From positions 450,420-514,419 of the forward strand of contig NZ_CANSMR010000003.1 of the NCBI RefSeq assembly GCF_947648125.1: 64,000 bases of DNA. Direction: 5' to 3'. A program made the position numbers and the translations under genes. Positions 2,874-5,433 of the stretch are shown here, piece by piece. This stretch comes from an uncultured Bradyrhizobium sp. Lineage in GTDB: Bacteria > Pseudomonadota > Alphaproteobacteria > Rhizobiales > Xanthobacteraceae. The notes beneath the pieces were generated by a model. The model made no database searches and was not told where the DNA came from. It saw nothing but the letters and a program-made list of their open reading frames with translations. Within the stretch, counting starts at the first letter, position 1, and each line of letters starts with the position of its first letter.

Positions 2874-3037
2874 GCATTGAAGCTAACACAGCCCTAGAAC
2901 AAATCAAGAACATGAACTGAGAAAATCCACAAAGTGATGGCGTAAAAATCTGCAGGCGAACAGGCTGCTTTGAATATGACAAGGTGATAACACGGCCGGA
3001 GTTTCTCCATTGTTTGAGCCACCGAAGCCTCAAAATC

Positions 3038-3607
3038 ATGCTGAGCGTGATCATCCCCACCGATGGCGTAGAGCGCACTGCGGTCGCAACATTGGCCGCG
3101 CTGGTGCCGGGTGCGGCCGCTGGTGTCATCCGCGAGGTGCTGCTGGTCGACCGCACCAACAGCGATGTGATGGAGCGCGTTGCCGACATCGCCGGCTGTC
3201 ACTTCCTGCGTTTCGAGGGCACCCGCGCCGCAGCGCTCGCGGCAGGCGCCAGGCAGGCGCGGTCGCCCTGGCTGATGTTCCTGCATCCGGGCGCGGTTCT
3301 CGACGCCGGCTGGATCGAGGAGACCACCCAGTTCATCCAGATGGTGGCGGCAAGCGGCAAGGATCGCGCCGGCATCTTCCGCTACGCCCGCGCGCCGTAT
3401 AGCGACCCCGGTCTGCGCGACGGCCTCAAATTCGTCGCCCGGATGATCGCCGGGCCCTCGGCCGAACAGGGCCTGCTGATCGCGCGCGAGCATTACGAGC
3501 GGATCGGCGGCTACCGGCCGGATGCCCGCCGCTCCGAGGCGCGTCTGCTGCGCCGGCTCGGCCGCTCCTCCCGCACCATGCTGCGCAGCCGGATCATGGT
3601 GGCGTAA
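3038..3607 (+). CDS. Short glycosyltransferase family 2-like protein
   Basis: The 189-aa product starts MLSVIIPTDGVERTAVATLA and then EVLLVDRTNSD, the first two strands of the GT-A nucleotide-sugar fold. After GTRAAALAAGARQARSPWLMFLHPGAVLD, the position where family 2 enzymes carry Asp-x-Asp reads HPG. It is also shorter than typical family 2 enzymes (230-300 aa) and ends soon after the ERIGGYRP motif. I therefore call the fold with fair confidence but not catalytic activity. The start at 3038 fits the fold; an in-frame upstream start at 2984 would add residues of no recognisable character. Confidence 0.7.
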   Translation: MLSVIIPTDGVERTAVATLAALVPGAAAGVIREVLLVDRTNSDVMERVADIAGCHFLRFEGTRAAALAAGARQARSPWLMFLHPGAVLDAGWIEETTQFIQMVAASGKDRAGIFRYARAPYSDPGLRDGLKFVARMIAGPSAEQGLLIAREHYERIGGYRPDARRSEARLLRRLGRSSRTMLRSRIMVA

Positions 3608-3656
3608 GGCCTGACGTCAGAAACCATTAGAGAAGTTAGGCCCTTTCGCCTGCCGC

Positions 3657-3746
3657 CGTCATGCCCGGCCTTGGGCCGGGCATCCACGTCTTTGCTTCGG
3701 TCACGCAAGAAAGACGTGGATGGCCGGGACGAGCCCGGCCATGACG
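3657..3746. repeat. Palindromic repeat, family B (CGTCATGCCCGG)
   Basis: Begins CGTCATGCCCGGCC and ends GGCCATGACG, with ATCCACGTCTTT mirrored by AAGACGTGGAT. A second copy is at 15203-15291. It follows the glycosyltransferase-like gene and may form a stem-loop in its transcript. Confidence 0.8.
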
Positions 3747-3811
3747 AAGATAGTCGTTTCAGTCGGTCAGAAAGATGTGAGATCGGTTATGCGAAGACCC
3801 ACTTGCCATTT

Positions 3812-3850
3812 ATTTGATTTCATCAAATAATATATTTGATGAAATCAAAT
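3812..3850. promoter_or_regulatory. Perfect 39-bp palindrome over the MarR-GNAT start (probable operator pair)
   Basis: Arms ATTTGATTTCATCAAAT (3812-3828) and ATTTGATGAAATCAAAT (3834-3850) are exact reverse complements around the spacer AATAT. Each arm is itself a half-palindrome of form TTTGAT-n3-ATCAAA, the size of a MarR-family operator, so this may be two adjacent dimer sites. The start codon of the regulator (ATG 3839) is inside the right arm. Direct observation; the operator role is inferred. Confidence 0.7.
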
Positions 3851-4780
3851 TCCTATGACGCCTCCCTCGAGAGCCAGGTTGCCGCGGTCCGCGGCTTCAG
3901 CCGGTTCTACACCCGCAAGCTCGGCATCATCGAGCCGAAGCTCTTGCACTCGACATTCACGCTGCAGGAAGCGCGGATCATCTACGAGCTCGCGCATCGG
4001 GAGAACTGCACCGCGACCGACCTGGTGCGCGATCTCGACCTCGATGCCGGCTTCGTCAGCCGCACGCTGGCGGCGCTGCAACGCCGCCAGATCGTGACCC
4101 GCAAGCCGTCAAGGGCTGACAAGCGCGTCAACGAGGTGGCGCTCACCGCCAAGGGCCGCACTGCTGCCGCCGATCTCGACCGCCGCTCGCGCAGCGAGGT
4201 CGGGGCGCTCTTGAAGCAGATGGATGGCGACCGCCGCGCCGCGGTGGTGCGCGCGATGGGCACGATCGAGCAGTCGCTGGAGCCCCCGGCCGAGAAGCCG
4301 GCGGCCTTCCTGCTGCGCAGTCACCGCGTCGGCGACATCGGCTGGGTGATCTCGCAACAAGGTCGCGCCTATGCGGAGGAGTATGGCTGGGACATCAGCT
4401 ACGAGGCATTGGTCGCCGAGATCTGCGCGCAATTCCTGCGATCGTTCGATCCGGCCTGTGAGCATTGCTGGATCGCGGAGGTCGACGGCGAGCCGGTCGG
4501 CTCGATCTTTCTGGTCAACGGCGGCGATGGGATCGCCAAGCTGCGGCTGCTGGCAGTGGAGGAAAAGGCGCGCGGGCTCGGCGTCGGCCGTGCCCTGGTC
4601 GACCAGTGCATCCGCTCCGCACGCGAGATGGGCTACAGGAAGATGACGCTGTGGACCCAGAGCATTTTGGTCGCCGCGCGCGGCATCTACGCCCGTGCCG
4701 GCTTTCAACGGGTGAAGGAAGAGAAGCATCACAGCTTTGGCGTCGACCTGGTAGGCGAGACCTGGGAGTTGGATTTGTAG
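3839..4780 (+). CDS. MarR-family regulator fused to a GNAT acetyltransferase
   Basis: A two-domain protein of 313 aa. Residues about 10-145 form a MarR winged helix: HSTFTLQEARIIYELAH, then the recognition region TATDLVRDLDLDAGFVSRTLAALQRR, and the wing with DKRVNEVALTAKGR. Residues about 155-310 form a GNAT domain, with the acetyl-CoA loop RGLGVGRALVDQCI and a C-terminal ARGIYARAGFQRV segment. This fusion is widespread in bacteria, but the acetylated substrate is generally unknown. The ATG at 3839 lies in a long perfect palindrome (3812-3850), so the gene is probably autoregulated and its message nearly leaderless. A TTG one codon upstream (3836) is a weaker alternative. Confidence 0.9.
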   Translation: MKSNSYDASLESQVAAVRGFSRFYTRKLGIIEPKLLHSTFTLQEARIIYELAHRENCTATDLVRDLDLDAGFVSRTLAALQRRQIVTRKPSRADKRVNEVALTAKGRTAAADLDRRSRSEVGALLKQMDGDRRAAVVRAMGTIEQSLEPPAEKPAAFLLRSHRVGDIGWVISQQGRAYAEEYGWDISYEALVAEICAQFLRSFDPACEHCWIAEVDGEPVGSIFLVNGGDGIAKLRLLAVEEKARGLGVGRALVDQCIRSAREMGYRKMTLWTQSILVAARGIYARAGFQRVKEEKHHSFGVDLVGETWELDL

Positions 4781-4793
4781 GGCCCCTCCTCGT

Positions 4794-4857
4794 CGTCATT
4801 CCCCGATGCGCAATTGCGCATCTGAGGGCATCGCGCAGCGATGAGCCCGGAATGACA
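4794..4857. repeat. Repeat, family C (CGTCATTCCCCGATGCGC)
   Basis: CGTCATTCCCCGATGCGCAA followed by TTGCGCATCTGAGGGC and ending GAGCCCGGAATGAC. The inner TGCGCAATTGCGCA is a perfect 14-base palindrome. A longer relative is at 8058-8184 and a diverged one within 57080-57240. Confidence 0.75.
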
Positions 4858-4869
4858 GGGGGGTGGTGG

Positions 4870-5433
4870 CTACGCGCTCGCGCCCTTCGCCTTCGGCCGA
4901 CGCAGATGCTCGTCGAGCCGCGGCATGATCTCGACGAAATTGCAGGGGCGCGTGCGGTAGTCGAGCTGCGCGGCGAGGATGCCGTCCCAGCCGTCGCGGC
5001 AGGCGCCGGGCGAACCGGGCAGGCAGAAGATGAAGGTGGCGCCCGCCACACCCGCGGTGGCCCGGCTCTGGATCGTCGATGCCCCGATCTTGGCGTGGCT
5101 CAGCATGTGGAAGGCGATCGAAAAGCCGTCCATCCGCTTCTCGAACAGCGGCTCGACCGCCTCCGGCGTCACGTCGCGGCCGGTGAAGCCGGTGCCGCCG
5201 GTGGTGATGACGGCATCGACGCCGGGATCGGCGATCCAGCGCCTGATCACGGCTCTGATAGCCTCGACATCGTCGGTGACGATCTCGCGCGCCGCCAGCT
5301 TGTGGCCGGCTGCGGTGAGACGGTCGGCCAGCGTGGTGCCCGATTTGTCATCCGCCAGCGAGCGGGTGTCGGAAATCGTCAGCACCGCGATGTTGAGCGG
5401 GATGAATGATTTGGATTCGTCGATCGAGGACAT
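4870..5433 (-). CDS. moaB: Molybdenum cofactor biosynthesis protein MoaB
   Basis: A MoaB/MogA-fold protein of 187 aa that in this family adenylylates or binds molybdopterin. The diagnostic motif TTGGTGFTGRDVTPEAVEPLFEK is present around residues 80-100. It is preceded by LTISDTRSLADDKSG and followed by the late PGSPGACRDGWDGIL loop that contacts the pterin. Length is typical of alphaproteobacterial MoaB. The start ATG is at 5433. No other molybdopterin gene is nearby. Confidence 0.92.
   Translation of the reverse strand: MSSIDESKSFIPLNIAVLTISDTRSLADDKSGTTLADRLTAAGHKLAAREIVTDDVEAIRAVIRRWIADPGVDAVITTGGTGFTGRDVTPEAVEPLFEKRMDGFSIAFHMLSHAKIGASTIQSRATAGVAGATFIFCLPGSPGACRDGWDGILAAQLDYRTRPCNFVEIMPRLDEHLRRPKAKGASA

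Follow-up and report, generated by a model that had tools for sequence, protein, structure and literature searches.

The locus and its MarR-GNAT gene

The stretch of DNA we analysed, 64,000 nucleotides of a contig from an uncultured Bradyrhizobium sp. and hereafter the window, carries a gene for a protein in which a MarR winged helix (approximately aa 40–97) is fused to a GNAT acetyltransferase (approximately aa 202–289); the features around its start are collected in Table 1. A program-made list of open reading frames begins this frame one codon earlier, at TTG. Pfam matched MarR_2 (5.9e-11), MarR (3.3e-9) and Acetyltransf_1 (3.9e-16), with MarR_2 and MarR above cut-off. A profile of 37 homologues matched MarR chains in the PDB (best 3.1e-12) as well as GNAT chains, and by sequence the N-terminal half is a MarR-type winged helix-turn-helix. 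In the predicted model (mean pLDDT 83.9, pTM 0.53) this half runs H42-53 H59-66 H70-82 E86-90 E98-102, a winged-helix-like order. When the whole model was compared with known structures, the best 50 of 999 aligned chains were GNAT only, matching residues 152–313; MarR structures were absent among those best 50, an absence that proves nothing for this tool. Among the matches listed, the best folds were tied between protein- and small-molecule acetyltransferases. The motif of the GNAT acetyl-CoA loop is R/Q-x-x-G-x-G/A, and the protein has this loop together with a GNAT domain and fold.

Table 1. Features at the start of the MarR-GNAT gene, in window positions.
Feature	Position	Strand	Remark
Predicted -35, TTGCCA	3803..3808	+	10 of 12 matches together with the -10; shuffle mean 0.2
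Operator 1 (putative), ATTTGATTTCATCAAAT	3812..3828	.	Between -35 and -10
Predicted -10, AATAAT	3826..3831	+	17-bp spacer; overlaps the edge of operator 1 and the inter-operator gap
Operator 2 (putative), ATTTGATGAAATCAAAT	3834..3850	.	Over predicted transcription start, start codon and codons 2–4
Start codon ATG, predicted also transcription start	3839..3841	+	Geometry and absent Shine-Dalgarno
Codon 3, TCA (Ser)	3845..3847	+	Invariant though rare in these genes
MarR-GNAT gene, 313 aa	3839..4780	+	Pfam, PDB profile matches, predicted model

A palindrome made of two operator-like dyads

The initial annotation described positions 3812–3850 as a perfect 39-bp palindrome that contains the start codon of a MarR-GNAT gene, with 17-base arms that are exact reverse complements around a 5-base spacer. 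Direct reading bears this out: the sequence is ATTTGATTTCATCAAAT AATAT ATTTGATGAAATCAAAT, and the ATG within the right arm opens the 313-aa frame. If the loop is narrowed to 3 nt, the arms grow to 18 nt each (3812–3829 and 3833–3850, 100% match). Each arm is individually TTTGATnnnATCAAA, and the two centres lie 22 bp, or two helical turns, apart.

The window contains exact TTTGATnnnATCAAA twice, and no more often with up to 2 mismatches allowed, where the chance mean is 0.58 and 11 of 100 shuffles give two or more. The annotation had proposed searching the genome for this motif; across all 8,572,917 bases the exact form was found at the same two places only, and the looser consensus ANTTGAYNNNRTCAANT likewise has just these two matches. 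By sequence, each arm conforms to the 16–20 bp palindromic operator expected at the promoter of a MarR-family gene, and the proposal that the arms have the form of MarR operators gains support from the same motif at the promoters of homologues across phyla, described below. All 17 Watson-Crick pairs between the arms are present in one of 37 distinct sequences of the same architecture, namely the window's own; the other 36 have 11–15 of 17 (G-U pairs uncounted). As judged from this comparison, the 39-bp perfection is local, and the conserved part is the two dyads and their spacing.

A predicted leaderless message

In a simple consensus scan, TTGCCA-N17-AATAAT was the only sigma-70-like site between positions 3600 and 4900. 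We call the window's architecture type A: TTG (-35)-N17-AATAAT, followed after 6–7 nt by an ATG that belongs to operator 2. A protein search gave 32 distinct type-A sequences, the window included; all 32 have TTG at the -35 place, and their operator centres lie 17 and 38–39 bp from where the -35 begins; this set omits loci fetched by pattern, and its selection rules still contain operator 1 and AATAAT. Counted from the -35's first base, the ATG comes at 35–36 bp in 32/32 of the same set, with selection for this -35/ATG geometry additionally containing TTGATG. No Shine-Dalgarno match of at least 3 nt was found within 18 nt upstream of the ATG in any of 37 type-A sequences, a larger set in which some loci were retrieved through a pattern with AATAAT and ATG in it.

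The predicted promoter would thus place the start codon at +1 with no Shine-Dalgarno sequence. Since this sequence is absent and the distance from -35 to ATG is fixed, a start at the AUG is the simplest prediction, and the mRNA of the MarR-GNAT gene is probably leaderless. The earlier suggestion of a message with almost no leader is therefore backed by constant promoter geometry and the absent Shine-Dalgarno sequence, with the start itself predicted. Leaderless starts do occur in the genus Bradyrhizobium: in excerpts from the transcription start mapping of B. japonicum USDA 110, 320 gTSSs lie 0–10 nt from a start codon and 192 exactly at one (PMC4842269).

Codons apparently dictated by a putative operator

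If operator 2 is read as DNA, it should constrain the first codons of the gene, and the codon counts agree. Codon 3 is TCA in all 32 distinct type-A sequences selected without operator 2, while 28 of these genes use TCA for 12 of their 439 serines at other places. (A broader count, 37/37 TCA, is partly circular, as 30 of the loci were fetched with a pattern that holds TCA.) Codon 4 is AAT, AAC or AGT among the 32 sequences. Codon 2, which lies mostly over the unconstrained dyad centre, varies (AAA 28, GAA 2, AGA 1, AAG 1), sometimes with an altered amino acid. As controls for rare codons near a start, TCA accounts for 10 of 53 serines in codons 2–10 of leadered orthologues and for 1 of 53 in codons 5–12 of type A; 43 invariant residues of six-codon amino acids in 35 type-A genes include three that keep a single codon throughout, and the other two use the common AGC. 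Both comparisons include pattern-fetched loci. On this codon evidence, operator 2 appears to be read as DNA within the gene and to set a DNA-level constraint on its first codons.

Predicted leaderless and leadered forms within Bradyrhizobium

All 195 sampled Bradyrhizobium genomes have some match to the protein at E <= 0.001, a few of them weak only. We read upstream regions in 80 of the 195, chosen mostly among the better matches, and found 28 of type A, 51 of a second form, type B, and one (L090) outside both patterns that by eye is a type-B variant. In type A one operator sits within the promoter and the other on the start codon. Type B is ATACTTGCCAAAGTCAAATAATTATTTGACAATGGCAAGTATCGAGGTGnnnnATG: operator 1 contains the -35, operator 2 contains the -10 GACAAT, and a short Shine-Dalgarno leader comes next. 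GACAAT is the -10 in 57 of 62 distinct type-B regions; a start was found 13–29 nt past it in 60 of the 62, with none in reach in L067 and L068, and 57 of these 60 leadered orthologues have a Shine-Dalgarno-like match of at least 4 nt. Relative to the -35, the operator pair is 11–12 bp further downstream in type A (17, 38–39) than in type B (6, 27), where the 17-mers were placed by hand on the type-B sequences.

A search with the type-A pattern gave 37 places in 36 of 265 genus genomes, a count that genomes with a type-A promoter lacking AATAAT escape, as the pattern requires it. At all 30 fetched type-A loci the embedded ATG opens an in-frame MarR-GNAT protein. Two of these frames are short: that of L211 (122 aa) is cut by the end of the locus, and that of L206 (genome G168) stops at 242 aa and is apparently broken. 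A short repeat like ATCGCGAAAACAACCCCATGCAAAGTAGA lies upstream of the promoter in many Bradyrhizobium loci (L046–L048, L066–L068, L100, L103 and others).

The two forms appear to have replaced one another. Our tree used 68 of 100 proteins of 290–345 aa with the N-terminus removed, L206 omitted and rows without the type-A pattern labelled B. Type A is restricted to one clade of 44 rows (support 100/100), which also contains 9 type-B rows, and the tree requires at least 4 changes between A and B. Type-A B. retamae Ro19 pairs with type-B Bradyrhizobium sp. sGM-13 as its sister (98/89). From codon 21 to the bin at +840 the two genes share 93–100% identity per 60-nt bin, with a final partial bin at 72% and a single D/E exchange in the MarR region, whereas the stretch from -240 to codon 20 is only 45–56% identical. 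Such gene identity below a divergent upstream region means that nearly the same protein stands behind both forms. These comparisons suggest that promoter, operators, leader and N-terminus were exchanged as a block, and we infer that one MarR-GNAT protein reads both the leadered and the leaderless form.

The motif in other phyla

Among 39 homologues from outside Bradyrhizobium (Alphaproteobacteria, Cyanobacteria, Bacillota, Chloroflexota, Acidobacteriota and others, by record title), the best site scores at least 10/12 in 34, compared with 2.0% of dinucleotide shuffles, the scoring consensus having been derived from these same loci. A second site scoring at least 8 is present in 20 of those 34, exactly 21 bp away in 19 of the 20. 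For comparison, all 95 distinct regions of the Bradyrhizobium set (L018 and L026–L144, all Bradyrhizobium except one MAG) have a best site of at least 10/12 and a second site at 21–22 bp. Identical regions were removed for the 39 and 95 counts, while a 190-locus count kept duplicate genomes, and related rows in these comparisons are non-independent. The motif was absent in 4 Rhizobium homologues (L173, L174, L182 and L184), and the best site of L170 scores 9. Three of the four Rhizobium homologues have an inverted repeat around CTCGGCACAAGGCCGAG upstream, at the scan threshold. The wide presence of the motif outside Bradyrhizobium makes it likely that a self-site, often double, is ancestral in the MarR-GNAT family.

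Targets and neighbours

In its own genome ATTTGATnnnATCAAAT has no further place at 0 or 1 mismatch. There are three places at 2 mismatches, two within long open frames and one at convergent frame ends (mechanical frames), and 73 in all at up to 3. Genomes of 30 relatives, out of 35 other genomes with the type-A pattern, hold 16 extra consensus places versus 8 for the reversed pattern by our own tally. The 6 of these 16 that we inspected all lie within long open frames, and a sequence that recurs in three genomes falls in a ParA-like frame (two copies inspected, by eye, P-loop). We saw no recurrent second target in the 30 genomes, with 6 of the 16 extra places inspected. A small extra regulon in relatives of type A is possible. 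One of the six, the consensus site ATTTGATGTTATCAATT near position 1501 of L217 (genome G015), also lies a short way before an ATG that opens the frame MNQHAKIEIRHSTCPHDCPSACALDIEVID... and is a possible extra target in that genome.

The flanks of 14 distant homologues hold varied frames, and no partner gene common to the set was seen in them. By Pfam, four flanking frames are EamA, BacA, inositol phosphatase and AraC-like, and in both Microvirga loci the frame after the gene looks EamA-like by eye. The lack of a recurrent target together with varied neighbours suggests that the MarR-GNAT protein mainly controls itself. On that view the acetyltransferase would act as the output, with its substrate or its product as the likely signal.

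A probable self-repressing circuit and its rivals

Taken together, we consider it probable (roughly 0.82) that the gene encodes a dedicated MarR-GNAT autorepressor with two self-operators and a leaderless mRNA; binding, repression, start and ligand we infer from the patterns above. With the operators spaced two helical turns apart, two repressor dimers would bind next to each other; the first would occupy the space between the -35 and the -10, the second the transcription start together with the start codon, so that RNA polymerase is blocked. Release presumably comes through a ligand or the state of the acetyltransferase domain, after which TTGCCA-N17-AATAAT would give a leaderless mRNA from the AUG or within 1–2 nt of it. 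A leaderless message implies that translation would be independent of a Shine-Dalgarno sequence and probably weak, as would fit an autoregulator. At the protein's beginning, operator 2 would impose ATG-AAA-TCA-AAT. Of the mechanism first proposed, the tandem MarR-type operators at the gene's own promoter and the ATG in the right one are supported by comparison, and the hairpin as an equal alternative is not.

That hairpin would make the long palindrome an mRNA switch hiding the start codon, which we regard as very improbable. The 101-nt stretch with both arms does fold well below its shuffles (-35.9 kcal/mol, z -5.75, 0/200 as low), and in relatives the stop of an upstream glycosyltransferase gene lies as near as 42 nt to the ATG, which makes read-through RNA plausible. 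However, with the predicted -10 situated between the arms, transcription of the gene itself would start near the ATG and leave out the left arm, and a start-hiding hairpin in this transcript is unlikely for this reason. As a leaderless 5' end, the window's first 45 nt fold weakly (-4.0 kcal/mol), and full arm pairing is confined to one of the 37 sequences. In leadered orthologues, moreover, both operators lie ahead of the predicted transcript or at its very beginning. The placement of the -10 and the unconserved pairing thus speak against a start-hiding hairpin as the main mechanism. There is a small chance that a hairpin acts on read-through RNA only and that protein comes solely from the leaderless, repressible mRNA. 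In 28 type-A loci the distance from the end of the upstream gene to the ATG is 42–340 nt (100 nt or less in 21), a gap short enough to make this role possible; the Shine-Dalgarno sequence is absent, and the mean 5' folding energy of the 37 sequences is -18.7 kcal/mol with the operators, in a longer stretch, and -5.8 without. Two palindromic operators would nonetheless give such a fold automatically, the 37 sequences show no sign that pairing is selected beyond the dyads, and the two genes in the window are kept apart by a repeat element that has an inverted repeat of its own.

The mRNA could also be leadered, coming from an unseen upstream promoter or start, with the overlap of operator and ATG incidental. 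The transcription start does rest on prediction, but the Shine-Dalgarno absence in 37/37, the 35–36 bp from -35 to ATG in 32/32 and the lack of a second promoter-like site in the simple consensus scan of 3600–4900 leave this rather unlikely. We give very little credence to a different MarR-type protein binding the sites: the genome has weaker matches to the query's MarR half, but the motif tracks the MarR-GNAT family across phyla, even beside unrelated neighbours. The palindrome, striking though it is, makes most sense as a pair of protein sites, not an RNA hairpin.

Relation to known repressors

A full-text literature search, with subscription papers mostly outside its coverage, gave no study of a MarR-GNAT autoregulator or its operator among the matches listed. 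Lambda cI and Tn1721 tetR are repressors with operators at their own promoters; they belong to other protein families and a mobile-element context, and we know of no operator pair mirrored over the start codon in either. Both are described as leaderless in PMC3017554 and PMC9938897. Repressors that are leaderless and have operators at the promoter of their own gene are already known, as AcuR and CrtR illustrate. AcuR of Rhodobacter sphaeroides is an autorepressor whose leaderless mRNA was shown experimentally (PMC3017554). As far as excerpts of that source go, it resembles our case in being alphaproteobacterial, in having an inverted-repeat operator over the promoter, in a leaderless message (here predicted) and in low translation (here expected to be weak). 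It differs in belonging to the TetR family, in its single inverted repeat TAATAGAC-n6-GTCTATTA and in its operon with acuI and dddL, whereas here there are two MarR-type operators, the second in coding sequence, and a fused GNAT. CrtR of Corynebacterium glutamicum is of the MarR family, reported leaderless, with its own gene in its regulon; it is divergent from the crt operon it controls, its binding needs a TTAA motif, and a fused enzyme is not mentioned in the excerpted text (PMC5401885). According to the same excerpts, typical MarR autoregulators use 16–20 bp palindromes, often over -10/-35 (PMC5401885). The 17-bp dyads over the promoter, with steric repression expected, are like these; unlike them, the pair extends into codons 1–4, and sister lineages are leadered.

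More tentatively, and at somewhat less than even odds, MarR-GNAT may be a one-gene circuit in many phyla, released by its substrate, with a Bradyrhizobium cassette that swaps leadered for leaderless starts and puts an operator into codons 1–4. If so, one repressor would serve two very different modes of translation initiation, and the DNA-binding half of an acetyltransferase would repress essentially its own promoter alone. The locus offers a testable self-operator for a fused repressor-enzyme family, an example of a coding sequence whose first codons would be dictated by an operator and, in the near-identical repressors behind leadered and leaderless versions of one gene, a natural experiment.

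Sequence upstream of the promoter

The upstream gene in the window (2984–3607) resembles TIGR04283 glycosyltransferases at 69.8 bits, under the cut-off of 182, and in many Bradyrhizobium the end of this gene can be made out ahead of the MarR-GNAT gene. In the window, an inverted repeat with 37-nt arms (84%; 3657–3746) separates the glycosyltransferase gene from the promoter; it is part of an element of about 90 bp with at least 40 places in the genome (80 both-strand matches; 40 of 116 candidates scored).
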